Source of the DNA: an uncultured Erysipelotrichaceae bacterium
Lineage (GTDB): Bacteria > Bacillota_I > Bacilli_A > RFN20 > CAG-826
NCBI GenBank assembly: GCA_902773005.1
Contig: CACYCS010000025.1
Coordinates: 1 to 32,381, forward strand
Length of the DNA stretch: 32,381 nucleotides
Reading direction: 5' to 3'
Position 1 is the first letter of the stretch. Each line of letters begins with the position of its first letter. The notes beneath the pieces were generated by a model. It saw only the letters and a list, made by a program, of their open reading frames with translations. It was not told the DNA's origin and did not search any database. This document shows positions 288 through 23,170 of the stretch, in pieces. Both the position numbers and the translations under genes were made by a program.

Positions 288-1058
288 CTATTCTTCGTAG
301 GTCGCGTCGAATAACGCCCACGAATATTGGCTCATGTATTCGCCGCGATAGCTTCTTATCGCCTCCGGATCGCCTTTCTTATAGGCGTAGGCATCGCATT
401 CGATCTTGCTCGGATCGATGAAGCACTCCTTGTACCGCTTCACGAACACATCGCTTTGGCCAAGGGAATTCAAGGTATCCTGAATGTCGGCGATCAGATT
501 GCGCAGATACGACTTATGGTCCTCTTCCCAGAGAACCGCATTCAGCTCATTGATGTTCGTGGCCGCGCCTTCGCGGTCGACGAGATAGGCGAATAGCTCC
601 TTCGATTTCTTATAGGAGAATTTGACGGGCACTCCCCCATAGAATACCTCAAAGCTTCCGAAACATTTGACTTTGAGGCCCCTGCTGAAATTCTCCCCTA
701 CGGGGTTGCGGAGGTTCTCTAGCTCAAAAAGGACCTTCTCTTTGGTGACGGGCTTGCTGATATAGCCAGAGGCGCGGATCTTCAGCGCATCGAAGGCGTA
801 AGCGTCATAGGCGGTCACGAAGACGATATTCACCTTGGGATTCACGCCCTTCAGGGATTTCGCGAGGCGGATGCCATTCATCCCGGTCATCTCGATGTCG
901 AGGAAGGCGATGTCGATCTGCTTGTCCTGGCACTCCTCCCAGGCTTTGAGGGGATTCGAAAAGGAAAGGATCTCTTCCTCTTTGTTCAAAGCGGAAGTCA
1001 CGGCCTTCTCAAGTCGCAACAGCTGAAGCGGCTCATCGTCGACAAGCAGAATCCTCAT
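288..1058 (-). CDS. Response regulator, REC plus SARP-like winged-helix output domain
   Basis: Two-component response regulator and probable transcription factor. The N-terminal receiver domain (about residues 1-118) has the acidic pair D7/D8, the phospho-acceptor D54 in AFLD, T82 in VFVTAY and K102 in SKPV, so it should be phosphorylatable. The C-terminal part (about 128-256) starts KVKCFGSFEVFYGG and continues KKSKELFAYLVDREG...LNAVLWEE, the pattern of winged-helix domains of the SARP/OmpR type, with a short BTAD-like tail. No histidine kinase is in the window, so its input is unknown. The ATG at 1058 is preceded by AAGGAG at good spacing. The gene has its own promoter and terminator and points the same way as the large operon upstream of it, but is separated from it by 513 bp and a terminator. 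Confidence 0.85.
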   Translation of the reverse strand: MRILLVDDEPLQLLRLEKAVTSALNKEEEILSFSNPLKAWEECQDKQIDIAFLDIEMTGMNGIRLAKSLKGVNPKVNIVFVTAYDAYAFDALKIRASGYISKPVTKEKVLFELENLRNPVGENFSRGLKVKCFGSFEVFYGGVPVKFSYKKSKELFAYLVDREGAATNINELNAVLWEEDHKSYLRNLIADIQDTLNSLGQSDVFVKRYKECFIDPSKIECDAYAYKKGDPEAIRSYRGEYMSQYSWALFDATYEE

Positions 1059-1571
1059 CGATCATTTCTCCTTTTTATATGGCCTTGGGGATGCGGCTAA
1101 CCCTCTATTCAATATTAGCAGTCGCATCTATCGGAATAAATTCCGAGGCAAGCACACAAAAACAAAATCGGCGTTTGCCTAACTACCATATCTTGCGCCA
1201 CAAAGCGCCACAAAAGTGTCACTAAATGAAAGGGCAATCAAGACAAGCGGATCATAATTCTTGCATCAGACTAAGGCAAAATAGAGAAACGCCCACTGGT
1301 GAGTCTATAGCCTCTGTTTGCGTGTCTAAGAATGTATTTGTTCTAAAATGGCGCCTCTAGGAATGGCCAACGCAAAAAAGACATTCTATGTTGTTTATTC
1401 GAAAGGCCGAATTGGGGAAACACTGTTTACCCAATCTCAAAACGCCCCCATCGCGAGGGAAGGACGGAGGTTCTGCCAAAAGGCAATGCCTCGATCTTTG
1501 CAAGCGAATATCAGACCATCATTCCGTCAAAGGAAGAGCTATTGAAACTGATAGACGAAAAAGAACCCGCA
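1059..1571. other. Intergenic region between response regulator and large operon
   Basis: This stretch holds the response-regulator promoter and palindrome (1112-1145), a tandem 11-bp repeat containing GCGCCACAAA (about 1195-1216), a copy of GCCACAAAAGTG at 1207-1218 that recurs at 30110-30121, a coding relic on the plus strand (1470-1589) and the terminator of the large operon (1558-1584). Between 1220 and 1465 I see no gene with a ribosome site. Confidence 0.5.
1112..1145 (-). promoter_or_regulatory. Promoter of the response regulator gene with palindromic operator candidate
   Basis: On the minus strand an extended -10 element TGC-TAATAT occupies 1120-1112. The perfect palindrome CGGAAT-AA-ATTCCG at 1132-1145 covers the -35 region, which has no good -35 hexamer. 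This layout suits an activator or repressor site; self-regulation is only an inference. Confidence 0.5.
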
Positions 1572-1589
1572 TCACTGCGAGTTCAATAA
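1470..1589 (+). pseudogene. Remnant of the C-terminus of a YhcG/DUF1016-type nuclease
   Basis: One plus-strand frame reads VLPKGNASIFASEYQTIIPS then KEELLKLIDEKEPASLRVQ and a TAA stop at 1587-1589. The pattern ASEYQ...PSKEELLKLIDE resembles the last residues of YhcG/DUF1016 (PD-(D/E)XK) family proteins, which often end with FAS-x-Y-x-x-x-L-P-x-x-E-E-L. Upstream of 1470 the frame gives no recognisable protein and no start with a ribosome site, so I read it as a decayed 3' end. Recognition is by eye from a 39-residue match. The relic runs 18 bp into the 3' end of the convergent 1013-residue gene and contains that operon's terminator. Confidence 0.35.
1558..1584 (-). terminator. Terminator of the large operon
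   Basis: On the minus strand GAACTCGCA (1584-1576) pairs with TGCGGGTTC (1571-1563) around a GTGA tetraloop, followed by five T residues (1562-1558). The stem overlaps the last codons and the stop codon (1574-1572) of the 1013-residue gene. It is the only strong minus-strand terminator I found between 19632 and this point. Confidence 0.85.
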
Positions 1590-4500
1590 GGTGATGAAGT
1601 CGTTCCTCTCCATCGGGGCGTAGAAGTAATACCCCTGCATGTTGACGGTCGGATCGATCTCCTTGATGAGGTTGTACTGGTCGAGGTTCTCGACGCCGAC
1701 GACGGTAGCCGGGAGGGATTTCTCCTTCGCGTGATTAAGAAGCATCGTGAGGTCTTTGAGCTTCGTCTGGTTCGTGTCGATGCCGTGGACGTTGTAGCGG
1801 CCGATCTTGATCTCGGAGAAGCCAAGGCGCAATACCTCATCGCAAGAGAGGTATTTGCCGCTATACTGGTCGACGACGAGGACGACGTGGAAGGACTGGA
1901 GCATCTTCGAGATCGCGATGAATTGCTCGGCATGGTCGAAGGCGTCCTTCTCGGTGATCTCGAACGAGACGAAGTTCCGCGGGAACTCGAATTCCCTTTG
2001 TATCGCCTCGAGGTCCTTGGCGAAGAATTCGTCGAGGAAGAAGGAGACATCGGTATTGATGGCGAGGCGGTTGAAGCCCATTTGCTTCAAGGTGAAGCCG
2101 CCGACGGTCTGGAAGGATTGGCCAAGGTAGCGGAGCAAGGCGGTCGAGATCATGGCGATCTTGCCGTTGGCGGCCGCGACCCTGACGAGTTCGTCCGGGT
2201 TGAAGACGATGTGGCGGTAAGTATCTTGAATACGGAGGAGGAGCTCCGCGCCATAGATCTTCTTGTCGAGGGGATGGACCATCGGCTGGAAGTTGACGCC
2301 GAAGGTCGCGTTGCCGAACTGCTCGTTGATGACCGAGAGGATGAATTCCCTTCTCGAGGCCGGACGGATGTAGTCGGAGTCATCGAAGTAGACGCGGTCC
2401 TTGAAATACTCGTACTTCTTTCCGCCATAATCGCGATAGACGTGGCGGACGAAGTCGAGGGAGGTCGCAAAGCCCTGCGGGTAGTTCATCGGGAGGTAGG
2501 TGATGTCAAGGGAGTACTTGTCATCGCCTTCGTAGACGATGTCCTTGGTGAGGAGGTAGATGTCCTCGACGCGGTTCAATAGGTCAACCTGACCCGTGAC
2601 GGGGAGGACGAGGCCGAGGCATTGCTGGTCGAAGCGGAACACCGCTTCTTTTTCGTTCAGGACCTTCTTGACCTTCTCGATGAAGCTGCGGAGCAATAAT
2701 AGGTAGCCTTCGCTTCCGTATTTGGCGACGAGCTCGGATTGGTTATCGATGCGAAGAAGCAGCAAATACCCGGAGTCGCCGACAAGATAATGGTTATCCA
2801 TCTCTTCCATGAGCGAAGCGAAGGAGTTGATGAGGAGGTCGCGGTCGTAGCGGTCCGCCGCTCCTTCCGCAGCTTCGGTCTTCATGACCATGAGGGTCGG
2901 GTTTACGACGCGGCGCGTCTCCAAGGCGAGCGAGATCTCATAGGTCCCCTTCTTGTCGGAGAAGACCTTCTTGTCGCCGACCTTAAGCGGGCAATCCTTG
3001 CAAGGCGATTTCCTATCGAAGAGGCATTCGTGGCAAATCCCGCCGAGTTTGGCGCTAGGGAATAGCCTACTGGCCGATTCGCTTAAGGCGAGCAATTTGT
3101 AGGATTCCCTATCGATCTGATAGGTCGCGGTCGAAGAGGCGGTAAGCAGCGCCTCGAACCTGCGATGCGCCTCAACCGTTTGCTCAATCGATTGCCCGAT
3201 CACGTAGCTGGCCGCGATATGGTAGCAAGCTGCGCTCAGCGCTTCTTGCTGGTAGGAATCGATCCAGGGCCTTCTGGAACGATGGACCATGTAGATGAAC
3301 CCATCGGGCTCGCCTTCTCTAATAAGGATATATAGGAAGCCGGATTCGAGTCCGAAGCGGTCGCAGAACTTGGCGAATTCGCCGGTCGCGTGGTCGCGGC
3401 GCGAGAAGAAATAGACGTGGCTCTTATCGGCCACCGCGTTCAAGGCGGTGACGAATCTATTTTCGACGCGCATCCCTAGGCGGAATGGCTCATCCGTCCC
3501 GACGGCATCCTTCACGATGTAGCCGCCGATCTCGGAGTCGAAGGCCACGATGCCGGCCGATTCGAATCCCGATTCGCGCATCATGGAATTGAGGACGTCC
3601 GCCATCTTGGCGCGGACCTCTTCCTTGTTCCCTCGGTCAGAGGTAATCGCGGAGATATTGTAGAGGATGCGCGACATCTGGTTGAAGTACATCGAGTCCT
3701 TCATCACGGTGATATCGTCGATGCCGTGCAACCTATTCGGCAAATAGAGGTTGCTGATCTCGCCTTGGCGCTTCGCGTAATAGAGGTCAGGGAAGATCTC
3801 GTGGACCGCGGAGAAAGGATAGGCGACGATCGAATAATGGGCCGGGATGATCTTCATGCCGCTAGGCGAGCGGATCGAGAAGGCGATCGAGCCAAGAAGC
3901 ATATCGAAGCGGTCCTTGACGCCCGAGAAGCTATCGATGCGCGGGAGGAAGATATAGGCGCTTCGATGGTCATCGGAAGTCATGAGGAGGCGATCATCAT
4001 AAGAGGAGAACGCCTCGTCCATGCGCTTCAATAGGCGCGCTAGGTCATCATTGGACAGCCCTTCTTTGCCGGATTCGTAATAGACCTCGGCGACGACGTT
4101 GCGGAAGTTCTTCGAGGAGGCGATGATGTTGCCTAGCGACTCGATGAAGCTCTTGACGGTGACCGCGCCTTCATAGACGGGATCCTTCACGAGGTCGAAC
4201 GTCGAATAATCGAGGCTGCCGAAGATCAGCACGCTATTGGCGAAGCTTTCCTTGACTTGCTTGACCGCTTTGTTGAGCTCATCGAATTCCTCGACGCTCC
4301 CTTGCGGATAATAGGCAAGGTCGCTCGAGGCGCTATTGATCTTGCGGTAATTCTCTAAGGTCGCGGCATATAGCCCATCGTTATAATAGGTCCCCATCGT
4401 CTTGATGATGAAGTAGATGAGGAAGGCGAATCCCCCGCCGAAAAGCACCGATAAAACGATCACGGCGATCAGGAATCCGATCCCTCCGATCGTCGCATAT

Positions 4501-4613
4501 AGGACCAAAAGGATCACGGCGATCAGCACGAAGCTAGATAAGGCCGCGACGCAGATGATCGCGTAATGCGAGAATAGTTTCCGTAGTGTCGGGGTTTTGT
4601 TCACGTTTTTCAT
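1572..4613 (-). CDS. Membrane protein with degenerate GGDEF and EAL domains (probable c-di-GMP receptor or scaffold)
   Basis: 1013 residues. Two membrane helices span about 15-72. A GGDEF-like fold without signature follows (about 100-290), then a GAF-like region (about 305-480), a PAS-like segment with a four-cysteine cluster C527-x2-C530-x7-C538-x2-C541 (metal or redox site candidate), a second degenerate GGDEF domain (about 611-745, reading RFDQQC where RxGGDEF should be) and an EAL domain (757-1013). In the EAL domain E790, N853, E885, K936, E975 and Q993 are present, but the metal-binding DD pair is D915-Q916 and the acid of AEGVE is V972. Loss of both makes phosphodiesterase activity unlikely; c-di-GMP binding or protein docking is more plausible. 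It is last in the operon, 5 bp after the preceding gene, with a weak ribosome site, which suggests translational coupling. Confidence 0.8.
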   Translation of the reverse strand: MKNVNKTPTLRKLFSHYAIICVAALSSFVLIAVILLVLYATIGGIGFLIAVIVLSVLFGGGFAFLIYFIIKTMGTYYNDGLYAATLENYRKINSASSDLAYYPQGSVEEFDELNKAVKQVKESFANSVLIFGSLDYSTFDLVKDPVYEGAVTVKSFIESLGNIIASSKNFRNVVAEVYYESGKEGLSNDDLARLLKRMDEAFSSYDDRLLMTSDDHRSAYIFLPRIDSFSGVKDRFDMLLGSIAFSIRSPSGMKIIPAHYSIVAYPFSAVHEIFPDLYYAKRQGEISNLYLPNRLHGIDDITVMKDSMYFNQMSRILYNISAITSDRGNKEEVRAKMADVLNSMMRESGFESAGIVAFDSEIGGYIVKDAVGTDEPFRLGMRVENRFVTALNAVADKSHVYFFSRRDHATGEFAKFCDRFGLESGFLYILIREGEPDGFIYMVHRSRRPWIDSYQQEALSAACYHIAASYVIGQSIEQTVEAHRRFEALLTASSTATYQIDRESYKLLALSESASRLFPSAKLGGICHECLFDRKSPCKDCPLKVGDKKVFSDKKGTYEISLALETRRVVNPTLMVMKTEAAEGAADRYDRDLLINSFASLMEEMDNHYLVGDSGYLLLLRIDNQSELVAKYGSEGYLLLLRSFIEKVKKVLNEKEAVFRFDQQCLGLVLPVTGQVDLLNRVEDIYLLTKDIVYEGDDKYSLDITYLPMNYPQGFATSLDFVRHVYRDYGGKKYEYFKDRVYFDDSDYIRPASRREFILSVINEQFGNATFGVNFQPMVHPLDKKIYGAELLLRIQDTYRHIVFNPDELVRVAAANGKIAMISTALLRYLGQSFQTVGGFTLKQMGFNRLAINTDVSFFLDEFFAKDLEAIQREFEFPRNFVSFEITEKDAFDHAEQFIAISKMLQSFHVVLVVDQYSGKYLSCDEVLRLGFSEIKIGRYNVHGIDTNQTKLKDLTMLLNHAKEKSLPATVVGVENLDQYNLIKEIDPTVNMQGYYFYAPMERNDFITLLNSQ

Positions 4614-4618
4614 AATTG

Positions 4619-5350
4619 CTACCCCATGATGTCGGTTCGCCCGATGTCGCCGATCGTGGTGACGATGGCTTTGCCGATGTCGTTGAATTTCGATAAGGCC
4701 GCCGCGTATTCGTTCACGGTGTAGGGCTTATCGAGGAAGCGCGCGATGACCTTGACCCCAAGGAAAGGGATCTGGCAAAGGCTGCAAGCCATGGCCACGC
4801 CGCCCAAAGTGCTATCTAGCACCACTCTTTCCCTTTTCCCGAAGAGCTTGCCGTCCACATCGTATTCGACGAGCTGGGTGCTTGCGGTGAAGACGACGTT
4901 GGTCGAGACGTAGGTCGCGCGGTAATAGGCGGCATCAGTTTTGGACTCGAGGGATTTCTCGAGGTAGGAGAGGACGTCTGGCTGGCTAGCGTAGTTTGCA
5001 GGCATGAGCGGGATCTGCCCGAAATGGGTCTCGATGTCGGCGGTCTGGTCGACATCGGCGGCGTAGGTGATCTGGGAAATCGCGATGTCGCCGAGCTTCC
5101 AGTCCTTGCTATAGGCGGTCGCTTTGCCGACCGAGAAGACGAGGATCACCATGTATTTCTGGACGAGGTAAAGGACGAGGGAAGAACTCAAATAGTTCGA
5201 ATACACTTGGCCTAAGACGAGGACCTCCTGGTTGAAGATCCGCCCGAGGACGATCGGGAAGCGGTCGAAGACGACTTCCCTGCGCTTGTCGGACATGATC
5301 GATTCGAAATAGAGGACGTCGTCATGGCTCGAGCCGACGATCATGATCAT
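4619..5350 (-). CDS. Nucleoside phosphorylase/MTAN-fold protein, probably inactive
   Basis: 243 residues with the layout of the PNP/UDP phosphorylase superfamily, closest by eye to 5'-methylthioadenosine/S-adenosylhomocysteine nucleosidase: MIMIVGSSHDDV matches the GAMEEEV start, KLGDIAISQITYAADVDQT and FGQIPLMP match the mid-domain substrate loop, and VAMACSLCQIPFLGVKVIARF matches the C-terminal core. The three MTAN catalytic acids do not align well: E12 corresponds to D11, E174 to T181, and D197 to R204. I infer a sensor or regulatory pseudoenzyme rather than a nucleosidase. The ATG at 5350 has AAGGAGG at 9-nt spacing and overlaps the previous stop by 4 bp. It lies between two c-di-GMP-domain genes, an unusual place for this fold. 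The alignment is by eye. Confidence 0.6.
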   Translation of the reverse strand: MIMIVGSSHDDVLYFESIMSDKRREVVFDRFPIVLGRIFNQEVLVLGQVYSNYLSSSLVLYLVQKYMVILVFSVGKATAYSKDWKLGDIAISQITYAADVDQTADIETHFGQIPLMPANYASQPDVLSYLEKSLESKTDAAYYRATYVSTNVVFTASTQLVEYDVDGKLFGKRERVVLDSTLGGVAMACSLCQIPFLGVKVIARFLDKPYTVNEYAAALSKFNDIGKAIVTTIGDIGRTDIMG

Positions 5351-6909
5351 TGTTCACTGCCTCCTTCCTCTTCGGACTGGGTCTCGAACGGATTGTCGAG
5401 GAGGAACCTCTCGTATTTTTCGCGGGGCAAGGCCTGCGAATAATAGAATCCCTGGATGACGTCGCATCTAGCGCGGCGCAAGATGTCGATCTGCTCCTTG
5501 GAGTCAGCGCCTTCTGCGATGACTTCTAGGCCCGAGATTTTGCAAAGTCCGATCGAGAGGCGGACGACTTCGCGGGCGCGCTCATCGGTTGCGATGTTAT
5601 CGACGTAGGACTTATCGATCTTGACCGCGTCGAAGGGGATACGACGGAGGTTCGAGATGTTGGAATAGCCGATTCCGAAGTCGTCCATGAGGATGCGGAT
5701 CCCCTGCTGGCGGAGCTTCTTGATGATCGAGACGGAGAGGAATTGGTTGGCTTGCGAGGTGGTCTCGGTGATCTCAATCTCGATGAGGTTATGCTCGATT
5801 TTGGCATCGTCGATCATCTTGATGACCGAGGTTAGGAAGTCGCTAGAATAGAATTCGTAAAGCGAGAAGTTGACCGAGACGGGAATTAGCCTCCTGCCGC
5901 GCCTTTTCGCGTCTCCTAGGTCTTTGCAGACCTGACGGAAGACATAGGTATCGAGCTCATGGATAAGGCCCGCAGCCTCGATCTTGTCCATGAATTTTCC
6001 AGGTCCCAATAGGCCGCGGGTCGGAGATTCCCAGCGGACTAGAGCCTCAGAGGAGGTGAATCTTTCTTGCTTAAGCGAGTACTTCGGCTGGTAGAAGACC
6101 TTGAACTCGCCTTTCTCAAAGGCTTGGATGATCTCATCGATCTCGCTTTTGGAGTTGGTCTTCTTCATCGAGGGATCGAAATAGGTGATGGCCTCGAAGT
6201 TGCTCTCGGCGGCGTCTCTAGCGAGCATCGCGTTGCCGATATTGTCGATCAAATTGGTTGCCTTATCGACCGGAGCGATGCCAAAGAAAGGCTGGACGTA
6301 GATATGGTAACGATGCTCCTCGACCATCGCGTAGATCTCGTCGCGAATCGCGACGGCGAGGTCGTTCACATCCTTCTCGTCGCGGTCGATCGCATAGACT
6401 AGGAAGGTGCCGCGGTCGAAGCAGAAAAGGTGCTTCCTGTGGTCGAATTTGCCGGTGCGCTTGGCAAACATCTTGTCGAGGATCGCGGCGATGCGGCGAT
6501 TGACGTCGGCCATTTCGCCGTTTGTCCTGATGCCGCGGCCCGCCGCATATTCCGAAGGCGAGAAAGCGATGATCCACTGCTCCTTGCCCGCGTATTTCTT
6601 CCTCTTGGAGCGGAGCAACACCGCCTGCTGGAAGGCATAGAGGTTAAATAGGGGCATCGATTCGCCAAGGGAGTAGAGGTTTTCGAATTCGAGCGATTTG
6701 TTCATCCTCGCCTGGCTATAGAAGCGCGCGAAGAAGAAGAACGCTACCCCGAGGAAGACGATCATGAACCCTAGCATCATGAGGATGATGCCTACTCCTG
6801 CGCCAAAGCCGTTAGTGGCGCTCGTCGCAATCGTTAGTCCCAAGGCGATGAGGGCAAGGCTCCCCGCCACGACCATCAGGGTGAAGAAAGGGGTTTTTAC
6901 GGTTTTCAT
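5347..6909 (-). CDS. Membrane EAL-domain c-di-GMP phosphodiesterase with degenerate GGDEF domain
   Basis: 520 residues. Two N-terminal membrane helices (about 8-30 and 36-62), a degenerate GGDEF domain (about 85-250; CFDRGTF at 163-169 replaces the signature), and a full EAL domain (255-505). The catalytic set is present: E288 in SSEAL, N347 in VSVNFS, E379 in EITE, D409/D410 in MDDFGIGYSN, K430 in VKIDKSYV, E466 in AEGAD and Q486 in IQGFYY; only the second acid of EGVE is changed to D469. It should hydrolyse c-di-GMP to pGpG at the membrane, with the GGDEF-like domain as regulator. The ATG at 6909 overlaps the stop of the signal peptidase gene by 4 bp behind AGGAGGAAGG. Because the operon is led by a c-di-GMP riboswitch, this gene could close a feedback loop. 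Confidence 0.88.
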   Translation of the reverse strand: MKTVKTPFFTLMVVAGSLALIALGLTIATSATNGFGAGVGIILMMLGFMIVFLGVAFFFFARFYSQARMNKSLEFENLYSLGESMPLFNLYAFQQAVLLRSKRKKYAGKEQWIIAFSPSEYAAGRGIRTNGEMADVNRRIAAILDKMFAKRTGKFDHRKHLFCFDRGTFLVYAIDRDEKDVNDLAVAIRDEIYAMVEEHRYHIYVQPFFGIAPVDKATNLIDNIGNAMLARDAAESNFEAITYFDPSMKKTNSKSEIDEIIQAFEKGEFKVFYQPKYSLKQERFTSSEALVRWESPTRGLLGPGKFMDKIEAAGLIHELDTYVFRQVCKDLGDAKRRGRRLIPVSVNFSLYEFYSSDFLTSVIKMIDDAKIEHNLIEIEITETTSQANQFLSVSIIKKLRQQGIRILMDDFGIGYSNISNLRRIPFDAVKIDKSYVDNIATDERAREVVRLSIGLCKISGLEVIAEGADSKEQIDILRRARCDVIQGFYYSQALPREKYERFLLDNPFETQSEEEGGSEQ

Positions 6910-8162
6910 TTCTTTCCTTCCTCCTGTTTCATCTTCATTAGCATCTCCGCCTTGAGCCGTGCCTTATCTTCTGGGGATAAGTCCGACAGGGCGTCGCTTT
7001 TTGGTTTTTCTTCTTTGGGCTTAGACGCTTTCTTTTCTTGCTGCATCTTCGCGAGCATCTCGGCCTTAAGCCTTGCCTTGTCTTCGTCTGATATCCCGGC
7101 GAGCTTATCGTCTTCTTTCCTCGGCTGAGTCTTCTTTTCTTGCTGCATCTTCGCTAGCATCTCAGCCTTTAGCCTCGCCTTGTCTTCGTCTGATATCCCG
7201 GCGAGCTTATCGTCTTTGGGCTTCTCTTCTTTGCCCATCTTCGCGAGCATCTCAGCTTTAAGCCTCGCTTTGTCTTCTTCGCTAAGCCCAGCGAGCTTAT
7301 CGTCTTCTTTCTTTGGCTCATCCGTTTTAGGGGCTTGCTCTATCTTTCTCGAGGCTTGCTTCTCACGGAACATCTCGGTCAGCATCTCTTGCTTAAGTCT
7401 AGCTTTGTCTTCTTCGGTTAGAGTCGGTCCAGCCCCGGACGAGGCTTCTTCCGCTTCGCCTTCTTTCAAGGTTCGGAAGATATCGATCACGGAGGTGATC
7501 ACCAAATAGAACGCCGGGATGAGCAGCAATGCGAATAGCCCTAGAGGGGAGGCGATGAATCCGAACACCCCGCCGAGGAATTGGCTGTTCATCACGACCT
7601 GTCCTAGCACATATTGCTCGGTCACGACCTGGTATTGGTTGATCTTCCATTCGCCGGACATATCGTTGATCCCGGCGAGGATGAAGATGTACCTCCCTTG
7701 CCCCACGGGCTGGGATTCATCGATATGGACCTCGCGAAGCCTATGGGTCATCGGGGTCCCATAAAGCCTATCCGCGGAAGACGCATTGGTCTGATAGGTC
7801 AATGCCGTATCATCGGGCTCGAACCTAGGCGCGGGCGCGTAAACGAAAGTCAGATCGACCTTCTGCCCGTCATTGAAAAGATCAACGATCTCCTCGATCG
7901 GCTTCTTGTAGGTGACGATCGCGGATTTGACCTTGTATTCCGGCTCCATGGAGTCGGTCTGGACGACGAAAGTCCCAACCCCGAATCTTAGCGACTGCCC
8001 ATAGTTCTCGTTCTTATGGATCATCCCGTCGATCGTCGCGGCCGCGGCAAAGGCAAAGATCGCGCCGAAAATCCCGACAAGCACCCACTCGATGATCTTT
8101 CGAGCTTTGCTCTTCGGGCGTTTGGGCTTCTTCTCTTTGTCTTTTCCGAATAGGCCAAGCAT
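6906..8162 (-). CDS. sipW: SipW-type signal peptidase I with repeated C-terminal tail
   Basis: 418 residues. A basic N-terminus precedes a membrane helix (about 22-44). The catalytic serine is S71 in VVQTDSMEP and the histidine of the Ser-His type (ER/SipW class, without the bacterial Lys) is H140 in PMTHRLREV. A second helix lies at about 197-228. Family members usually end there; this one goes on for 190 cytoplasmic, highly charged residues that hold five copies of a 17-residue helix, consensus LSEEDKARLKAEMLAKM, starting at 248, 293, 323, 357 and 395. It presumably cleaves the SipW-cognate signal peptides of the TasA-like proteins encoded upstream in the operon. The start at 8162 follows AAGGAAG and lies 3 bp after the previous stop. 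The symbol reflects family resemblance, not orthology. Confidence 0.85.
   Translation of the reverse strand: MLGLFGKDKEKKPKRPKSKARKIIEWVLVGIFGAIFAFAAAATIDGMIHKNENYGQSLRFGVGTFVVQTDSMEPEYKVKSAIVTYKKPIEEIVDLFNDGQKVDLTFVYAPAPRFEPDDTALTYQTNASSADRLYGTPMTHRLREVHIDESQPVGQGRYIFILAGINDMSGEWKINQYQVVTEQYVLGQVVMNSQFLGGVFGFIASPLGLFALLLIPAFYLVITSVIDIFRTLKEGEAEEASSGAGPTLTEEDKARLKQEMLTEMFREKQASRKIEQAPKTDEPKKEDDKLAGLSEEDKARLKAEMLAKMGKEEKPKDDKLAGISDEDKARLKAEMLAKMQQEKKTQPRKEDDKLAGISDEDKARLKAEMLAKMQQEKKASKPKEEKPKSDALSDLSPEDKARLKAEMLMKMKQEEGKK
6930..7421 (-). repeat. Five-copy helical repeat in the signal peptidase tail
   Basis: Encodes the five copies of [LI]-[ST]-x-E-D-K-A-R-L-K-x-E-M-L-x-x-M separated by variable Lys/Glu/Pro linkers (residues 248-411). 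Copies 3 and 4 are identical in protein and nearly so in DNA, pointing to recent duplication. The same motif ends the 116-residue membrane protein at 19674-20024. Confidence 0.85.
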
Positions 8163-8165
8163 CCT

Positions 8166-12376: not shown

Positions 12377-12391
12377 GTTGACGTAGCCTCC

Positions 12392-13735
12392 TTAGCTATA
12401 GATCCGGTTCATCGAGGAGATGACGCGGAAGGAAACGTTGGAATAGAAGTGCCCGCCCATGGAGGCGTTCACGCAATCGAGGTCCCAGCCCTCTAGGTAG
12501 ATGCTTAGGTAGATGGCTTTCGGAACGTTCGCATAGCATTTTATCACGACGGGGTTCGGCTTGCTCACGGTTACGATGAGCTTATCGCCTTCTTTTAGCG
12601 CTTCCCCAGAAACTAGATTCGCTTTGAGCCCATATTCGGATAGATCCACCGCTTCCTCGTTGTAATTCCAATTCGCCCCATCGTAGGCGAATACGTACTC
12701 CGCAGTATCCGAGGTATCGATCTTGGATTTTAGCTTTTCCTCATCGATGGAGCCAGGGGCGAAGCGAGTAGGATCGCTAGAGAACACCTCGATCGACCTC
12801 GCCTCAGGATCATCTGAGACGAAATCGGAATCGCATTCTTCTAGTAGCCTAGAGGGTTCCTCGGCAATTTGGAGTCCATTCGACAAAGAGGCCTCTAGGT
12901 CGAATGGCATTGTGTTGGCCCTGCGGTTTGCATTGAAGCAAGTGAGCTCGCCTATGGCTTCTTGCTTATCTTCTAACGGCTCTCCATATACGGCGAGCTC
13001 CCTATGGTAGACTTCGCCATAGATTAGGTCGCGGGGCTTATCATCGGAACCGTAATATGTATCAAAGTAAGTATCTTTATCGTTATCAAGCACCCCGCCG
13101 TATAAAGTCGTACCATCTTTATGCGGGTCGAAAATGTTATATTGGAACACGTAATCCTCTGGATCGTAGATGGAGATGCGCATCGCCTTCTCCAAGGAAT
13201 TAAGGCGTTCCAATAGAACTTCTTCGGAATACCCTGCCAGATTCTCGATCTCCCCCGCTTCGATTGCGCGGCGGTTCGCTTCGACCAAAGAATTCACGAA
13301 GGTCGATTTGGCGTCGATAGTCACATACGAATCGGCATCGGTCAATAGATAGATGGGATTCGAGAAATAGCCCTGTATCGCGGCGTACATCCCATTTGGC
13401 TCGCCAGACCTGCTCCCGAACCCTCCATGGTAATCATAAAAGACGGGCTTCTCGCCACCCATCCAAGTGTCGCTTTTCATCGCCGAGACGGGGAAGAACG
13501 GCTTATCGATCTTGTCGAGGTCCGAAGCGTTTGCCCTCTCACCAAACTGCGATAAGTCATCCTTTTGGATTGAGACCTTCAAATCGGGGCCGCCTGAGAC
13601 CTCGACGTCGAAATATTGGACGCCCACGTTGGCTGAGCTAGCATACCACGCAACGGAGGAAGAAACGGAAAAACTGGCCAAGGCGATGATGCCGACCAGT
13701 ATTCCTATCACGATCTTGCTCCGCTTCATGGTCAT
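12392..13735 (-). CDS. Secreted TasA/camelysin-like protein with SipW-cognate signal
   Basis: 447 residues. The N-terminus has a hydrophobic signal segment (about 7-28) running into SSSVAWYASSANVGV, the SipW-cognate pattern (small residues, A-W-[YF], then beta-rich sequence). The mature part is acidic and without cysteines in the signal-proximal region. Near the C-terminus it has AIYLSIYLEGWDLDCV, the [IA][YW]-[LIF]-E-G-[WTE] signature shared with the other members here, followed by a last beta strand. Probably exported by Sec, cleaved by the SipW-type peptidase and assembled at the cell surface. The ATG overlaps the preceding stop by 4 bp; M1 or M3 could be the true start. No enzyme motif is visible; camelysin-type protease activity should not be assumed. 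Confidence 0.7.
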   Translation of the reverse strand: MTMKRSKIVIGILVGIIALASFSVSSSVAWYASSANVGVQYFDVEVSGGPDLKVSIQKDDLSQFGERANASDLDKIDKPFFPVSAMKSDTWMGGEKPVFYDYHGGFGSRSGEPNGMYAAIQGYFSNPIYLLTDADSYVTIDAKSTFVNSLVEANRRAIEAGEIENLAGYSEEVLLERLNSLEKAMRISIYDPEDYVFQYNIFDPHKDGTTLYGGVLDNDKDTYFDTYYGSDDKPRDLIYGEVYHRELAVYGEPLEDKQEAIGELTCFNANRRANTMPFDLEASLSNGLQIAEEPSRLLEECDSDFVSDDPEARSIEVFSSDPTRFAPGSIDEEKLKSKIDTSDTAEYVFAYDGANWNYNEEAVDLSEYGLKANLVSGEALKEGDKLIVTVSKPNPVVIKCYANVPKAIYLSIYLEGWDLDCVNASMGGHFYSNVSFRVISSMNRIYS

Positions 13736-14928
13736 GACCTGCTGTTATTGATCTGGAAGGTGAGGCCGAGATTGAAGCCGAAGCTAATCTCGGTGTCGAT
13801 GACCGCATGGTCCCAGCCTTCGATATAGACGTACATATCCGTGGTGCCCACCGCTTTGTAAGAATTTGCTTCGCCACCCTCGAAATTGGCGGTTTTGGCG
13901 ACGTAAACCCCGCCAGAGAGATTTCCATAGCCATCGTCGGTCGGAGCGATCTTGGCTTTGGTGTAATAGGTCGCGGTTTTGGCGTTAAGCTGATTGACGA
14001 AGGTCCCGGAAAGATAGCCGTTCATCCCTTCTTCGTGACGAGCGAGGAAGGTTGAGGCGTTAGCGGGTTTAGAGGTATCTAGCCCCGTGGCATTGACGTC
14101 GTCTAGCCCTGTGGCTTGCTCGGCAGAGAAAGAGGTGGTTTTCGTGAACGAATTGCCACTGTAATCGCCATAGATGATCTCCTCGCCATCGGCGTCGCAA
14201 TCATAGTATTCGTCGTTATTGAGGTTCAATAATCCGGCGACTTTGTTGGTGCCTTGTAGGATTTGGCCGCCATGGCCATCATCGAAGTTGGCCGAGGGGG
14301 CCACGACGAACTTGTGGCCGGTCTCACCGTTATTGAAATATAGACGCAGCGCCTTATCGATCTTATGACCATCCGCAGTGGATTCCGCGGTGGCGTCGCT
14401 AAGCCAGATCTCGCGGTTTGCGCGATAGGTGACGGAATTTAGCGTCGGCTGGAGGACGCGGAAGGCAAGCTGGATCTTGCAATAGGCGCTTTTGAGGGCG
14501 GCCTTATTGATTTCCGCGGTGAAGGCGGTCGGGCATTTATAGAGGTTAAACGTGCCATCGGGGGAATATTCCCTTGTAGTGACGGGTTCTAGCTCAGTCG
14601 TGGCATAGCCTTGCTTGCCTAGATATGCGGTCACTAGCTCCTTGGTAAGGCCGTGCCCTGGCTCGACCCAATAATAGGTCGTGCCATCAATATCTTGGGC
14701 GGTGAGCTCGTGTGTTTTTCGCTCTTCAGAGGTGAAATTATAGTCGCCAGTGAAATAGAGTCCGATCTGAAGCTGTTGCGAGCTAGAGACCGAGGTGCCG
14801 GTGTATTCGACGGTCACGTGGTTGCTATTGGCGTACCATGCGATGGTGCCGGTCATAGCCCCAGCGAAGGACGCCAAAGAAGCCACAGACATGAGGCCGA
14901 TGAACAGTGATGTTTTGCGGAATTTCAT
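13732..14928 (-). CDS. Secreted TasA-like protein with SipW-cognate signal
   Basis: 398 residues. Signal segment about 7-27, then MTGTIAWYANSNHVTVEYTG, the SipW-cognate pattern with W31. The body is rich in Thr, Asn and Tyr and lacks obvious catalytic motifs. The C-terminal portion has DMYVYIEGWDHAVIDTEI and ends in FGFNLGLTFQI, the EGW signature plus terminal beta strand typical of this set. It follows a 106-nt spacer with two competing hairpins and has only a purine-rich weak ribosome site (AAAGAAAGAAG), so its expression may be tuned apart from its upstream neighbour. Likely a surface or fibre component. Confidence 0.7.
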   Translation of the reverse strand: MKFRKTSLFIGLMSVASLASFAGAMTGTIAWYANSNHVTVEYTGTSVSSSQQLQIGLYFTGDYNFTSEERKTHELTAQDIDGTTYYWVEPGHGLTKELVTAYLGKQGYATTELEPVTTREYSPDGTFNLYKCPTAFTAEINKAALKSAYCKIQLAFRVLQPTLNSVTYRANREIWLSDATAESTADGHKIDKALRLYFNNGETGHKFVVAPSANFDDGHGGQILQGTNKVAGLLNLNNDEYYDCDADGEEIIYGDYSGNSFTKTTSFSAEQATGLDDVNATGLDTSKPANASTFLARHEEGMNGYLSGTFVNQLNAKTATYYTKAKIAPTDDGYGNLSGGVYVAKTANFEGGEANSYKAVGTTDMYVYIEGWDHAVIDTEISFGFNLGLTFQINNSRS

Positions 14929-14961
14929 GGATTTAGGCTTCTTTCTTTTGCGAACTAGGTC

Positions 14962-15000
14962 CGCGTGCGTTTATAGACACGCGCAAGATTTGCTGCGCGT
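14962..15000 (-). promoter_or_regulatory. Two mutually exclusive hairpins in an operon spacer
   Basis: In the 106-nt gap between the 707- and 398-residue genes, 15000-14994 pairs with 14985-14979 (ACGCGCA/TGCGCGT, 8-nt loop) and 14983-14978 pairs with 14967-14962 (CGCGTG/CACGCG, 10-nt loop). The two stems share 14979-14983 and cannot form together. No T tract follows, so it is not a standard terminator; mRNA stabilisation, processing or partial read-through control are possible. Confidence 0.5.
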
Positions 15001-15034
15001 CCCCCGCTAGGAAAATATCAAATAATCAAATGGA

Positions 15035-17158
15035 TCAATAGGCATCGACCGCGAAGGTCATGCCGACGTTGAAGGAAGCTCCAACGTATTCTTTGTCGTC
15101 CCAGATGTTGCCGCCGACGCGGGCTTTGAACTCACCCGCTTGCTTGGCATAGACTTTGCCATCGGCTGCGTTGACGACGACTTCGTTCATCTCGAGGTCG
15201 CGTGCGGTCCAATTGCCATCGTCTGTGGAATAGACGTATAGCTTCATGGTGTCGGAGGCAAGATATGCGTCTCCATCGGCCATGCCAGTCATCCCGGCGA
15301 TGTCAGCGTCTTCGACGAAATCCTTGACCTCGACGTAATGAGAGCCGCGATCGGCTGGGGAGATTTCGTTCAGGCCGCCTTTGGAGTAGCTATAGAAGGA
15401 ATTGCTGATAACGTAGACTTTGCTAGGATCAGCTTCTGCGCCTTGCCATTGCACGCCATCATGGGTATAGACCTTGAGGTCATCGCTAGCGATATAGGCT
15501 TTCTCGGTGTCGCCATCGGAAGCGATTTGGGCCGCAGTCAAGGAATTGCTTTCGATCTTGACCGCGCTTTCTAGCGTCGGATCGAGGTTTTGCCAGCCTT
15601 CGAGGTAGATGCGGACGGTGACGGAGAACCAATCTTCGTCATCCATTGCGGCATCGCCAACGCTCCAAGGGACGGTTACGCCCAAAGGCTTTCCGACGAC
15701 ATGCTCATAGTCGCTATCGTCAGCGAGCATCCTAGAAGAAGCGGCAACGATATCTTTGCGGGTGACGACGTGCCCAGCGCCGCTAACATCGGTATAGATC
15801 TTCGCAGCAGGCTGAGTGGGCGCGTATTCCTCGGAGAAGGTGAATGCGCTGCCATCGTAATAGGCGACGCGATAGAAATCGGTTGAGCCAGATACCAAGG
15901 CAATCGAAACGACGCCATAGGTTGGTTCATCTTCGATTGGCAACGCAAGGCCAGTGGCTACGCCATCGACTTTGAAGCCGTTCTCGACTTCGACTGCAAT
16001 GTCAACGCCAAGAGCCGCATAGTCGCCGCCATAAGCAGCGATCAATAGCTCATTGTCATCGCTATCGGTCAATTTGTAGATGAGCGCGTCGCTAGAAGTC
16101 AAGGCGGGATCATTGATTGCATCCACGCCATCGATCTTCCAGACGTCGCCTTCTTTGGTGACGATGTGCCCTGCTCCGATTGTCTTATACGCAGGGCTTC
16201 CATTATCGTCATATTCGACGAAATCGAATGGTACGCCTTCATTGTCCTGCAAGGTATAGGACTTGACATCTTGATAGGCAAGCTCAGCGGTGTGGTAATA
16301 GGTGCCTTCCCTATTGCCGACGGTTTCGATGCCGGTATCGGCGCCATCGATCACCCAAGAGGGGCCGAAATCCGCTTTTAGGATCTTCGTCGATTTGGCG
16401 ACCTTGTTCTTATCGCCATAGACGATGTCTTCACGGTCATTGAATTCGTAATCGGTGCCGTTGCCATCGATCTTGTCGAATTCGCCATCCCCGTCCATAT
16501 CGAGCTTCGAATAGACGTCGACGTCTTTGCCATGGGTCGAGAAGGTCACGTCACTAGTCGCGTCGAAGGAGACGCGGAGGGCGTTGGTGATGTCTTTCTT
16601 GCCATCGGGTGAGGTCGATTTCATGGTGAGATCGGCCAAATATAGGTTCTTAGCTAGGAATTCGCGTTCTACCGCGGAATTCCCATTATTGTCCTCGACG
16701 CGGAACTGCAAAGGCAATTCGACGTAGTCGTCGAGGGTTGCTTTGCCCCAGGACTCGGTAGAGCCATGGTAGCGGACCGGGTTAGAGTAGAAAGAGGTCG
16801 CGACTTTATATTCATCGAGCTCGCCGCTAGTGACGGGCTTAAGCGAAGCATCATCGGCATTGGTCCTGACGTCATTGAGGTAATTCTGGACGTCGGCGAT
16901 GCGAAGGTCGCTCCTCCACTCCGTCTTGTAGCCATTGTCGCCCCGGACGCCATTTTCTAGATCTTCCTCAACCGACGGACGGAAAATCCTGACCCGCAGG
17001 TTCTCAGTGCACTTGGCCGAAGCTCCGCTATAGGCGACGCTCGCCCTAGTCGAGTATTGGTACCAAGCGACGGTGCCGGTGACCGAGCCTACCATGGACG
17101 CGACCGCGAGGGTGGACAAGACGACGGTCGTGACTTTTGCTTTGTTGATGTTCTTCAT
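15035..17158 (-). CDS. Large secreted TasA-like protein with repeated beta modules
   Basis: 707 residues, the largest member. Signal segment about 8-28, then VTGTVAWYQYSTRASVAYSG with W32 and a lone cysteine C50 in SAKCTENLRVRI; the 431-type neighbour has the same AKCTE[FN]L motif, so the two are close paralogs. The EGW signature (VRIYLEGWQNLDP) is followed by an extra stretch with modules of the form AY[IL]ASD-x-[LM]K[VL]Y (TEKAYIASDDLKVYTHDG and GDAYLASDTMKLYVYS), and the mid-region has two GAGH[IV]VT units. It ends GASFNVGMTFAVDAY, the shared terminal strand. Highly acidic, Asp-rich, possibly calcium-binding. Good ribosome site AAGAGG before the ATG at 17158. Flanked on both sides by GC-rich spacer hairpins. 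Confidence 0.7.
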   Translation of the reverse strand: MKNINKAKVTTVVLSTLAVASMVGSVTGTVAWYQYSTRASVAYSGASAKCTENLRVRIFRPSVEEDLENGVRGDNGYKTEWRSDLRIADVQNYLNDVRTNADDASLKPVTSGELDEYKVATSFYSNPVRYHGSTESWGKATLDDYVELPLQFRVEDNNGNSAVEREFLAKNLYLADLTMKSTSPDGKKDITNALRVSFDATSDVTFSTHGKDVDVYSKLDMDGDGEFDKIDGNGTDYEFNDREDIVYGDKNKVAKSTKILKADFGPSWVIDGADTGIETVGNREGTYYHTAELAYQDVKSYTLQDNEGVPFDFVEYDDNGSPAYKTIGAGHIVTKEGDVWKIDGVDAINDPALTSSDALIYKLTDSDDNELLIAAYGGDYAALGVDIAVEVENGFKVDGVATGLALPIEDEPTYGVVSIALVSGSTDFYRVAYYDGSAFTFSEEYAPTQPAAKIYTDVSGAGHVVTRKDIVAASSRMLADDSDYEHVVGKPLGVTVPWSVGDAAMDDEDWFSVTVRIYLEGWQNLDPTLESAVKIESNSLTAAQIASDGDTEKAYIASDDLKVYTHDGVQWQGAEADPSKVYVISNSFYSYSKGGLNEISPADRGSHYVEVKDFVEDADIAGMTGMADGDAYLASDTMKLYVYSTDDGNWTARDLEMNEVVVNAADGKVYAKQAGEFKARVGGNIWDDKEYVGASFNVGMTFAVDAY

Positions 17159-17201
17159 AGTTGCATCCTCTTTATATTAGATGTGATACCCGATTATCCC
17201 C

Positions 17202-17227
17202 GGGCGGCCGAGCTCAACCGGCCGCCC
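17202..17227 (-). promoter_or_regulatory. Strong GC hairpin in the spacer before the 707-residue gene
   Basis: CGGCCGCCC/GGGCGGCCG form a perfect 9-bp stem (17202-17210 with 17219-17227, 8-nt loop). There is no following T run on the minus strand, so simple termination is unlikely. Its place between two fibre-type genes suggests an mRNA stabiliser or processing boundary that sets relative amounts. Confidence 0.6.
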
Positions 17228-17284
17228 ATGGGATCATAAGGAAATATTTATAGGATAGGATTGATACAGAATGATGGATGGGGA

Positions 17285-18565
17285 TTAGTCAAGCGTGGTG
17301 ACGCCGAAGGACATACCGATGTTGAACTCGGAGCCAATGTAGCTAGCACTATTCCAAATCGTGTTCGCAGGACTGGTAACCGCAGCAGCTCCGTTAGCAG
17401 GCTCAAGCGGCTGCCATCCTTCAAGATAAATCGTGACGGTCAACGTGAAATATTCAGCATCGGTTGCGGGAACGTCAGTTCCATCGGTGGTTCCGAGGGC
17501 GCGCCCGCCTTCCAAGTGGCCGACGCTATCGTTGGTTGGATAAAGGCCGTTTGCTGCATAGAGGTTCGAATATGCTGCAGAAGTCCCCATGCCAGCGTCC
17601 TTGCCGTATTGAAGCGCAACAGGATTCTCAGGATCCGCAGCGTTGAAGCTGTAATGGGAACCCGGGACGTCCCTTTCGTCATCAACGTGGCCATCGAGAT
17701 TGAGATCGAGAGAGCCGGTGGTAACGGTGCTGATGTTAGCCGCGTTGGTGCCTTTGCCAATGTGGGCATAGGTAGTATCGTGAGCCAAATGGACGCGGAC
17801 GGCACTCGAGATATCCGAAGTTGCAGGAGAGGTCACTTTCTGAGCGATGGTCAAATCGGTCAAGTAAAGAGGCTGTGCAATCAAGGCATTCGGGTTTGCT
17901 TCCTTGCCGTCGATGTCAAGGACGCGGAACTGAAGCTGGAATTGCATATAGTCGGATGTTTCCGCGGTCTGCCACTTGTAATCGCCGTGAGCATACTGTT
18001 CATATCCGCAGACAGGCTGGCCATAAAGGGTTGGCAAAGCGCCATCAACGGTTGCACCAGGAGCGGTGACAGGGGCAAGTTTGCCATTGGCGCGGCCAGC
18101 GGCCTCAAGGATGTCGGCGTTCTGAAGGCTGGTGCCCCAAGAGCCATAATCTTTGGTGATGGTCTCCCACGCGGCGGGTGCAGCTGCTTTGTACTTGTAA
18201 ACGGTGCCGTTAACATCGTATTTAGCTCCGTCAACAGCAGCGACGCCTGCGCCAAAAGACTCTGCACCTTTGGTGAAGACCTTGAAGTCATCGGTGATGA
18301 CGATATCGCCTTCGGCATAGCTTGCAGCGGCTGCAGTAACAGCAGCTTCGTTAGCAAGTTTCGCTTTCGCCACAGTGCCAGTAGCGTCTTTAATGGTCCT
18401 GACTTGAAGGAATTCAGTGCATTTCGCGGTCGTTCCGGTGAATTCGGAAGTCACGCGCGTATTGTATTGGAACCAGGCTACGGTTCCGGAGATGGAGCCA
18501 GCTATACCGGCAGCCATCGCGATCGCCATAGTGGCTATGATCGCCTTTTTGCCATTAGTTTTCAT
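17285..18565 (-). CDS. Secreted TasA-like protein with SipW-cognate signal
   Basis: 426 residues from the ATG at 18565. An in-frame TTG at 18580 directly abuts AGGAG with no spacing, so I prefer the ATG, although its distance to AGGAG (15 nt) is long. Signal segment about 6-28, then SGTVAWFQYNTRVTSEFTG with W31 and C49 in TAKCTEFLQVRT, shared with the 707-residue protein. Very Ala-rich body. The C-terminal end has VTIYLEGWQPLEPANG and EFNIGMSFGVTTLD. Lacking the extra modules of its larger paralog, it may be the basic subunit. It overlaps the end of the upstream gene by 11 bp, and the next gene follows after a 126-nt spacer with a strong hairpin. Confidence 0.72.
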   Translation of the reverse strand: MKTNGKKAIIATMAIAMAAGIAGSISGTVAWFQYNTRVTSEFTGTTAKCTEFLQVRTIKDATGTVAKAKLANEAAVTAAAASYAEGDIVITDDFKVFTKGAESFGAGVAAVDGAKYDVNGTVYKYKAAAPAAWETITKDYGSWGTSLQNADILEAAGRANGKLAPVTAPGATVDGALPTLYGQPVCGYEQYAHGDYKWQTAETSDYMQFQLQFRVLDIDGKEANPNALIAQPLYLTDLTIAQKVTSPATSDISSAVRVHLAHDTTYAHIGKGTNAANISTVTTGSLDLNLDGHVDDERDVPGSHYSFNAADPENPVALQYGKDAGMGTSAAYSNLYAANGLYPTNDSVGHLEGGRALGTTDGTDVPATDAEYFTLTVTIYLEGWQPLEPANGAAAVTSPANTIWNSASYIGSEFNIGMSFGVTTLD

Positions 18566-19406
18566 AAGCGTTGATTTCAACTCCTAATTTGATTGATGCT
18601 CCTACTGGAGCTTTCAGCTTTTCCATATCGTCGGAGAACTGATACGACTGCGGGTCCTCCCCTTCTAGCCAGAGCACCGCGGTATACCTTTGCATCGCGC
18701 GGATGCCGAATCCGTTCACCCGGAACTTCGCGATCACATCGTCTGAGACGAAGTTCGTCGCTAGAGGATGATCGAGGACCGAGGGGATCGGCTTGCCGAG
18801 AGGATAGAAGTTCACGAATTCCTGATAGGTGTCGTGAAGGTCGCCCTCCTCGTCATAATACTCATGGACGTAGGCCGATTTCTTGGCGAATATGCCATAG
18901 TCATGGGTTTCGGATTCCGCGTCATTGGAATAGACCATGACCCGGAGGGTGTCGAGGAGGCTTCTGCCATCTTCCGACAGCTGATTCTCCACGACGTTGA
19001 TACTCATGACGTAATTAGCGATCTCGCTTCCCACGTTTTTGACGTAGAAGGTGTACTTGAAGTAATTGACCGACTCAATCGCACCGTCTTCGTTCACTCG
19101 GCAGGGGCTGAATGACTCACTCTCTTCGCTATCGAGCACATCGTCGCTAGGGAAGGCGCTATAGGTGAATTCCTCATAGGGGTAAGCCTCGCTCACCCTT
19201 AGCAGGGATTCGGGATTCTGGAACGCCTTCTCGGTTGCAAGCGACAGCGAGATCTCCCCGTTATTGACCGAAACCGTGAAGGTTCCGGTGTAACGTCCGA
19301 GGAATGCGATGATGCCCAAAGCGACGACTCCGGTCGTGCCGATGCCGCCCACTATGGCTGCTACCCGCCTTCTCAAGCGCTTTTTAACGTAATCGAGTTC
19401 GTACAT
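18555..19406 (-). CDS. Membrane-anchored camelysin/TasA-like protein, first gene of the operon
   Basis: 283 residues from the ATG at 19406; an in-frame TTG at 19451 would add 15 residues of unlikely sequence (MGHIQPFHILENGHF). No clear Shine-Dalgarno precedes either. A basic N-terminus (KKRLRRR) leads into a hydrophobic helix (about 15-36), then GRYTGTFTVSVNNGEISLSL. The A-W-[YF] signal of the sibling proteins is absent, so it may stay membrane-anchored and act as a base or adaptor. The C-terminal half has YTAVLWLEGEDPQSY, a variant of the EGW signature, and ends in ASIKLGVEINAYEN. It is the first gene after the c-di-GMP riboswitch and overlaps the next gene. Confidence 0.65.
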   Translation of the reverse strand: MYELDYVKKRLRRRVAAIVGGIGTTGVVALGIIAFLGRYTGTFTVSVNNGEISLSLATEKAFQNPESLLRVSEAYPYEEFTYSAFPSDDVLDSEESESFSPCRVNEDGAIESVNYFKYTFYVKNVGSEIANYVMSINVVENQLSEDGRSLLDTLRVMVYSNDAESETHDYGIFAKKSAYVHEYYDEEGDLHDTYQEFVNFYPLGKPIPSVLDHPLATNFVSDDVIAKFRVNGFGIRAMQRYTAVLWLEGEDPQSYQFSDDMEKLKAPVGASIKLGVEINAYEN

Positions 19407-19470
19407 AAAATGCCCATTTTCGAGGATATGAAACGGCTGAATATGTCCCAATGGCTTTGAATCTAATAAG

Positions 19471-19526
19471 CCAGCTGCCTTTCATCCATTTTCACTGGCG
19501 GCTTGATTCAAGCCTAAGGCAGCTGG
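19471..19526 (-). promoter_or_regulatory. Long hairpin overlapping the riboswitch 3' end, candidate expression platform
   Basis: CCAGCTGCCTT (19526-19516) pairs perfectly with AAGGCAGCTGG (19481-19471). Inside the loop GGCTTGA/TCAAGCC (19500-19506 with 19508-19514) forms a second possible stem. The 5' arm is also the last part of the c-di-GMP aptamer, so aptamer closure and this hairpin should compete. The following bases (CTTATTAGATT) are only mildly T-rich, so the mechanism is not settled. Confidence 0.55.
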
Positions 19527-19592
19527 CAATCTAACTTTTTAAGGGTTAGACCCTGTAGCTTTGCGACGCCGCGTCACCACGGTTTTGCTATT
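19516..19592 (-). ncRNA. c-di-GMP-I (GEMM) riboswitch
   Basis: The minus strand reads AATAGCAAAACC, then the hairpin CCGTG-GTGA-CGCGG with a GNRA tetraloop, then CGCAAAGCTACAGGGTCTAA, then a second hairpin (CTAAC/GTTAG), and ends ATTGCCAGCTGCC. The order GCAAA-stem-GNRA-stem-CGCAAAGC-hairpin-TTGCCAGCTGCC is the class I c-di-GMP aptamer pattern. It lies just downstream of a good promoter and upstream of the first operon gene, and the operon itself encodes an EAL phosphodiesterase and degenerate GGDEF/EAL proteins, which fits c-di-GMP control. Recognised by eye, without a covariance model. Confidence 0.85.
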
Positions 19593-19603
19593 TTCTCACC
19601 CAA

Positions 19604-19632
19604 AATATACCGATGCTGTCCCCCCAAGTCAA
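19604..19632 (-). promoter_or_regulatory. Sigma-A type promoter of the large operon
   Basis: On the minus strand the -35 hexamer TTGACT (19632-19627) and the -10 hexamer TATATT (19609-19604) are separated by exactly 17 bp. Transcription should start near 19597, a few bases before the c-di-GMP aptamer. Confidence 0.85.
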
Positions 19633-23109: not shown

Positions 23110-23170
23110 TCTTGTTTTGCCTTACAATTTGTTTTGACCTCGCAGCGAGTAGGCTAGGCGCGTCAAGTGA

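Follow-up and report, generated by a model that had tools for sequence, protein, structure and literature searches.

McrBC proteins are known as DNA-cutting restriction enzymes. The locus considered here, on a 32,381-nt stretch of DNA from an uncultured Erysipelotrichaceae bacterium (GCA_902773005.1, contig CACYCS010000025.1, positions 1-32,381; hereafter the window), encodes a membrane-anchored McrB-like AAA+ nucleoside triphosphatase (NTPase) and a partner bearing DUF2357, the N-terminal domain of McrC, alongside a SipW-type signal peptidase, secreted proteins and proteins with cyclic di-GMP (c-di-GMP) domains. It has the McrB AAA+ domain and the fold of the McrC N-terminal domain in common with E. 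coli McrBC, but is membrane anchored and apparently coupled to a peptidase, and neither a DNA-recognition domain nor a PD-(D/E)XK nuclease was recognised in the window McrB/DUF2357 system. The nearest described relatives are the NxD McrB GTPases that bear an FtsB-like membrane segment, are associated with signal peptidases and were named CoCoPALM by Bell et al. 2024 (PMC11090510), in a single paragraph that deferred their analysis and in a main text that mentions neither TasA nor c-di-GMP. Judged by its sequence, the window cluster agrees with CoCoPALM in its motif and in its link with a peptidase, having an NxD-type McrB AAA+ protein with an N-terminal membrane segment, a DUF2357 partner and an associated protein of the signal peptidase family. 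With regard to the FtsB-like transmembrane (TM) and coiled-coil segment of that clade, the window McrB has a TM at residues 61-79, a DivIC/FtsB match was obtained for only 1 of 22 McrB members (E 7e-4), and a simple heptad coiled-coil test was not significant. The initial annotation of the window took the joining of McrBC-type and TasA/SipW genes to be without precedent; the association with signal peptidases had in fact already been named, while that with TasA-like proteins and c-di-GMP is absent from the main text cited. No later paper on CoCoPALM turned up in the literature searched, nor any relevant one treating McrB together with TasA. As far as that literature shows, the fibre proteins, c-di-GMP circuit, DUF2357-peptidase fusion and shared tail described below are new with respect to CoCoPALM. 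Dedicated SipW-type peptidases encoded with secreted fibre proteins are otherwise represented by B. subtilis tapA-sipW-tasA and B. cereus sipW-tasA/calY; these are controlled by SinR, whereas a c-di-GMP riboswitch is present here, and the literature consulted describes no AAA+ motor for them. In C. perfringens, sipW-bsaABCRSD likewise specifies SipW-dependent, polymer-forming secreted matrix proteins, but is under two-component control, with no McrB/DUF2357 described.

In our assessment the locus is probably a c-di-GMP-induced, SipW-coupled McrBC-type machine that exports or assembles pilin-like surface fibres of the TasA/BsaA type. Eleven minus-strand open reading frames extend from about 19451 to 1572, headed by a promoter with a c-di-GMP-I riboswitch (19632-19515) and closed by a terminator (1584-1563), all present as the initial annotation had described (Table 1). 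In order, they encode a secreted or membrane-anchored protein (A); four secreted proteins (B-E), here termed AWF proteins, with a signal-type hydrophobic segment terminating in [VI]AW[FY]; McrB; DUF2357; SipW; an EAL protein; a protein with the fold of methylthioadenosine/S-adenosylhomocysteine (MTA/SAH) nucleosidase (MTAN); and a second EAL protein (EAL2). The junctions measure -26, 126, 106, -4, 15, -1, 3, -4, -4 and 5 bp, so that the tight packing reported earlier holds at eight of ten, the B/C and C/D gaps each exceeding 100 bp.

The gene cluster is real, and chance or mis-assembly can be rejected because the cluster is conserved in dozens of loci. A McrB relative was present in 44 of 61 genomes (the organism's own and 60 relatives), with a close copy (E < 1e-130) in 25 of 31 from the same genus, and a scan of named genomes returned at least 559 relatives, of which the 80 kept derive from Erysipelotrichaceae-type Bacilli, Acholeplasmatales, Izemoplasmatales, Oscillospiraceae, Lachnospiraceae and Ruminococcus. 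Conserved gene order, on which the initial annotation had staked its reading, is found among Bacilli relatives as A - AWF - McrB - DUF2357 - SipW - EAL - MTAN - EAL2, while loci of Clostridia typically read EAL - A - AWF - SipW - McrB - DUF2357 - SipW2 - large surface protein. A third type (L062, L063) combines DUF2357 and a McrB of four TMs with AWF-like proteins, a lipoprotein and the ATPase/permease of an ABC transporter. Among 56 well-flanked loci, some of which were also used in building the profiles and whose division into classes itself relies on MTAN, DUF2357 directly follows McrB in 54, SipW lies nearby in 55, and gene A, the AWF family and EAL occur in 54, 52 and 46, respectively, the last in 28/28 loci of the Bacilli type. 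An independent check, drawn from an unbiased, phylum-wide sample, compared 20 DUF2357 loci with 12 distant McrBC-type controls: SipW was nearby in 19/20 versus 1/12 (Fisher P 1e-6) and AWF proteins in 15/20 versus 0/12 (Fisher P 3e-5). Since the same gene set recurs across Bacillota, this is probably a widespread machine for building surface fibres.

A more direct link within the gene set comes from Ruminococcus. In R. albus KH2T6 (L119:11580-14555), one 991-aa chain carries both DUF2357 (31.1 bits) and Peptidase_S26 (27.1 bits), each above its Pfam cut-off, and the same fusion occurs in four more Ruminococcus-type loci (L103, L122, L126, L140), where the regions around the serine of GSMEP and the histidine of VTHR are preserved together with the flanking TMs; the R. 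albus chain, too, has its catalytic Ser and His intact. The window signal peptidase is the SipW that had been annotated (NCBIfam SipW 4e-6; SEC11A 3.6e-12 by profile), and its catalytic pair, Ser71 and His140, is invariant in 17 aligned sequences. Its cytoplasmic tail (LSxEExxxLKxEML in the Bacilli type) recurs, among the families scanned, only in a small two-TM protein that the initial annotation did not include and whose position upstream of the riboswitch is conserved in relatives. Fusion and synteny thus support a physical coupling of DUF2357/McrB to the signal peptidase. It could be argued instead that these genes are united under one promoter merely by a common response to c-di-GMP, and that McrB/DUF2357 serves a separate role in the envelope, for example in division, as an FtsB-like segment might suggest; the 126- and 106-bp internal gaps could hold other promoters, and the single DivIC/FtsB match noted above points the same way. 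We consider this improbable: Clostridia keep McrB, DUF2357, SipW and AWF genes together in a different order, and the fusion of DUF2357 to the peptidase is found in five genomes.

The identities of the ring and its partner agree with those first assigned, a membrane McrB and a nuclease-less DUF2357 protein. The former matches AAA_5 (PF07728; E 4e-5) as well as McrB structures, and contains GTANNDDST, an NxD-type motif followed by D/E that appears as N[NKRT]D[DE] in aligned homologs. The latter, at full length, matched nothing in direct Pfam, PADLOC or PDB searches, matches being confined to its core and family: PF09823 (DUF2357) is matched by 26 of 27 family members, at 8.5e-11 for the best of them and 0.0015 for the core of the window protein. 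In the comparison of its predicted structure (predicted local distance difference test, pLDDT, 86.6), the four best matches were McrC chains (Z 7.2-7.5), the next row falling to 4.4; Foldseek by itself gave no significant match to McrC (E 0.085, probability 0.51), and it was a second aligner that recovered it. A second McrB relative, truncated by the contig end, is present in the same genome (L217, G000 C155:20000-25356), with several membrane proteins upstream. An alternative reading is an anti-phage system of the McrBC/CoCoNuT type, with SipW, the AWF proteins and the genes for c-di-GMP as passengers or surface decoys, and the window McrB does match the PADLOC candidate PDC-M26A (E 7.5e-41) and shares its NxD-type motif with the CoCoNuT branch. 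Domain searches, however, found no nuclease, PD-(D/E)XK included, in the window DUF2357 protein, ten family proteins or the operon, and no PADLOC model is matched by DUF2357 members. The close copies in most same-genus genomes contrast with the patchy distribution of defence genes, and SipW and AWF neighbours are not a feature of the distant controls. A restriction or defence function is accordingly ranked low, and we regard it as very unlikely.

The proposal of surface fibres depends on the nature of the AWF proteins. The predicted structure of the protein encoded by gene E resembles pilins: its nine best VIA rows are chaperone-usher or CFA/I pilins, from FimA (Z 6.1) to CfaB/CfaE (4.5), followed by a row at Z 4.3 and then by unrelated folds. 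TasA fibres, for their part, assemble by donor-strand exchange in a manner reminiscent of chaperone-usher pili (PMC9674648), and another polymer, BsaA of C. perfringens, depends on SipW (PMC7395162). A protein of a related cluster (L184:8619-9248) exceeds the Pfam cut-off for TasA/camelysin (27.5 vs 22.5 bits), some cluster members show weak similarity to the BsaA family, and the EGxD core of the C-terminal motif of gene A also occurs in AWF proteins. Methionine 16 of gene A is nearly invariant (family alignment A5, 32 members), and its true start is probably the ATG at 19406, judging from where the family alignment starts. The earlier description of these proteins as TasA-like is carried by the AWF signal and the fold, not by a match of any window protein to a TasA family. 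A further AWF protein (20450-21694), encoded on the opposite strand here, was not in the initial annotation.

Several observations weigh against the fibre machine. TasA forms beta-sandwich donor-strand fibres; the pilin match of the gene E model lies below Z 8, and such modest values could reflect a common sandwich. No AWF protein of the window matches the family model for TasA/CalY (Peptidase_M73), in which they differ from the products of tasA/calY, and no match to that model occurs in the organism's own genome. Scanning 28 AWF proteins against NCBIfam and Pfam likewise yielded no TasA family, and profile searches of AWF proteins against the PDB gave nothing useful. MTAN and EAL2 are confined to loci of the Bacilli type, and EAL is present in only 18/28 loci of the other type. 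Finally, TasA and BsaA fibres have been described without any McrB motor, and recombinant BsaA polymerises unaided in E. coli (PMC7395162), so that a motor is not strictly needed for such fibres. Because known SipW fibres can form in this way, a serious rival, though in our view an unlikely one, is that McrB/DUF2357 and SipW constitute a unit for regulated proteolysis or quality control, the ring extracting unassembled or misfolded AWF preproteins or gating the peptidase without driving fibre growth. The fusion and gene adjacency indeed link DUF2357 to the peptidase and not to any single subunit, and the cytoplasmic tail common to SipW and the small membrane protein could dock on the ring. Yet the operon encodes no degradative protease, and the wide variation of AWF subunits around a constant module fits a role in assembly as well.

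Elements for a predicted control by c-di-GMP lie at both ends of the operon. A c-di-GMP-I riboswitch precedes gene A in ten relatives, and in the window the pairing of the P1 3' strand with the downstream stem reaches -25.8 kcal/mol, with 0/500 shuffles as good. Similar terminator-like competition for P1 is seen in L037-L040 and L052. We predict an ON switch, because the ligand stabilises P1, whose 3' strand otherwise pairs into the terminator-like stem; this prediction is weak at L041, L043b, L045, L045b, L048 and L048b. Distal genes encode the c-di-GMP domain proteins already recognised in the initial annotation, their EAL matches having E-values of 2.2e-63 and 9.5e-28. The first retains EAL, N, E, DDFG, K, E and Q on motif reading and is predicted to be an active c-di-GMP phosphodiesterase, while EAL2, in which DDFG lacks its second Asp and EGVE its Glu, is a candidate c-di-GMP receptor. 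EAL2 presumably resembles receptors of the FimX/LapD type in being a membrane protein with degenerate GGDEF and EAL domains beside a surface-structure machine, but is not known to share partner proteins with them. At L043, L045 and L048 an extra c-di-GMP-I riboswitch lies immediately upstream of EAL2, so that in some species this receptor candidate appears to be under a c-di-GMP control of its own. Between the two is the MTAN-fold protein, an addition to the initial annotation, with H/D, T and R at positions aligned with the catalytic carboxylates, which we take to be E12, E174 and D197 in E. coli MTA/SAH nucleosidase; it is thus a likely pseudoenzyme. The genome, with 16 GGDEF matches and five c-di-GMP-I riboswitches, is 82% complete and 5% contaminated, and this census is therefore provisional. 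Besides the operon described here, these riboswitches precede two other AWF-protein operons, which include a 1348-aa protein, and two diguanylate cyclases whose GGDEF is intact (L213-L216, on G000 C94, C133, C29 and C4).

These features can be combined into a working model of the fibre machine. Binding of c-di-GMP would stabilise P1 and free the transcript from the terminator, turning the operon on. AWF subunits B-E and membrane-anchored A would be exported by Sec and, to judge from the family, matured by the SipW/Sec11-type peptidase. The nuclease-less DUF2357 protein would stimulate the McrB-type ring as McrC stimulates McrB, and the ring, coupled to the peptidase, might by NTP hydrolysis drive or gate the release and assembly of subunits. 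The intact EAL protein would lower c-di-GMP, with EAL2 and the MTAN-fold protein as possible sensors tuning the machine. The c-di-GMP-controlled surface-fibre or matrix machine put forward in the initial annotation is in these respects supported, by conserved gene order, the joint occurrence of SipW and AWF genes across Bacillota, and the fusion in five genomes. More tentatively, it is possible that an McrBC-type ring was recruited in Bacillota, through fusion or docking to the SipW peptidase, as a motor that uses NTP to export and assemble fibres formed by donor-strand exchange. Such a motor would be an energised analogue of the chaperone-usher pathway, activated by a c-di-GMP riboswitch and tuned by a built-in phosphodiesterase and receptor. 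Were this so, one large branch of McrBC would have been turned, in partnership with a signal peptidase, to the construction of surface structures, proteins now listed as defence candidates would need reclassifying, Gram-positive SipW fibres would gain a dedicated motor, and the way in which c-di-GMP controls the surface matrix of many uncultured Bacillota of the gut would be explained. R. albus, with its single-chain version, offers a cultured test organism.

Table 1. Features of the operon and its flanks in the window.
Feature	Position	Strand	Remarks
AWF-signal secreted protein, divergent	20450-21694	+	same-strand upstream in relatives
Small two-TM protein, LTDEQREALKAELL tail in common with SipW	19674-20024	-	own terminator 19669-19650; just upstream of riboswitch
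Promoter-like site TTGACT-N17-TATATT	19604-19632	-	10/12, the highest among 11 matches in 20 kb; adjoins riboswitch
c-di-GMP-I riboswitch aptamer	19515-19599	-	Rfam RF01051, 59 bits (gathering score 35), E 2.7e-9
Predicted expression platform	19463-19529 (approximate limits)	-	downstream GGCAGCUGGC pairs with the 3' strand of P1; the stem is followed by a U-rich tail
Gene A: secreted/membrane-anchored, basic cytoplasmic N-end, one TM, C-terminal WLEGxD	18555-19451	-	family alignment, 32 members
Gene B: AWF-signal secreted protein	17285-18580	-	VAWFQ after signal TM
Gene C: AWF-signal secreted protein, 707 aa	15035-17158	-	VAWYQ after signal TM
Gene D: AWF-signal secreted protein	13732-14928	-	IAWYA after signal TM
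Gene E: AWF-signal secreted pilin-like protein	12392-13735	-	AlphaFold model pLDDT 82.9; pilin structural matches
Membrane-anchored McrB-like AAA+ NTPase, 507 aa	10853-12376	-	TM 61-79; Walker A/B intact; NxD-type motif NND[D]
DUF2357 (McrC N-terminal domain) protein without nuclease, 895 aa	8166-10853	-	core 1-320, then charged low-complexity tail
SipW/Sec11-type (S26) signal peptidase, 418 aa	6906-8162	-	Ser71/His140; repeated cytoplasmic LSEEDKARLKAEML tail
Two-TM protein, degenerate GGDEF and intact EAL	5347-6909	-	EAL E 2.2e-63; motif reading
MTA/SAH-nucleosidase-fold protein without catalytic carboxylates	4619-5350	-	PF01048 8.6e-12; alignment to 5dk6
EAL2: TM, degenerate GGDEF and degenerate EAL	1572-4613	-	motif reading
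Intrinsic terminator-like hairpin, T tail	1563-1584	-	9-bp stem and TTTTT, end of last gene

Elsewhere in the window, a response regulator receiver protein, whose C-terminal region has no assigned domain, is encoded just downstream of the operon (288-1058, minus strand). On the plus strand, a tetrahydrofolate riboswitch (23143-23241; 69.9 bits) lies upstream of the S component of an energy-coupling factor transporter, consistent with folate uptake, and two tandem paralogous AAA-ATPase_like/PDDEXK_9 genes (24786-26360 and 26718-28301) represent an apparent duplication.

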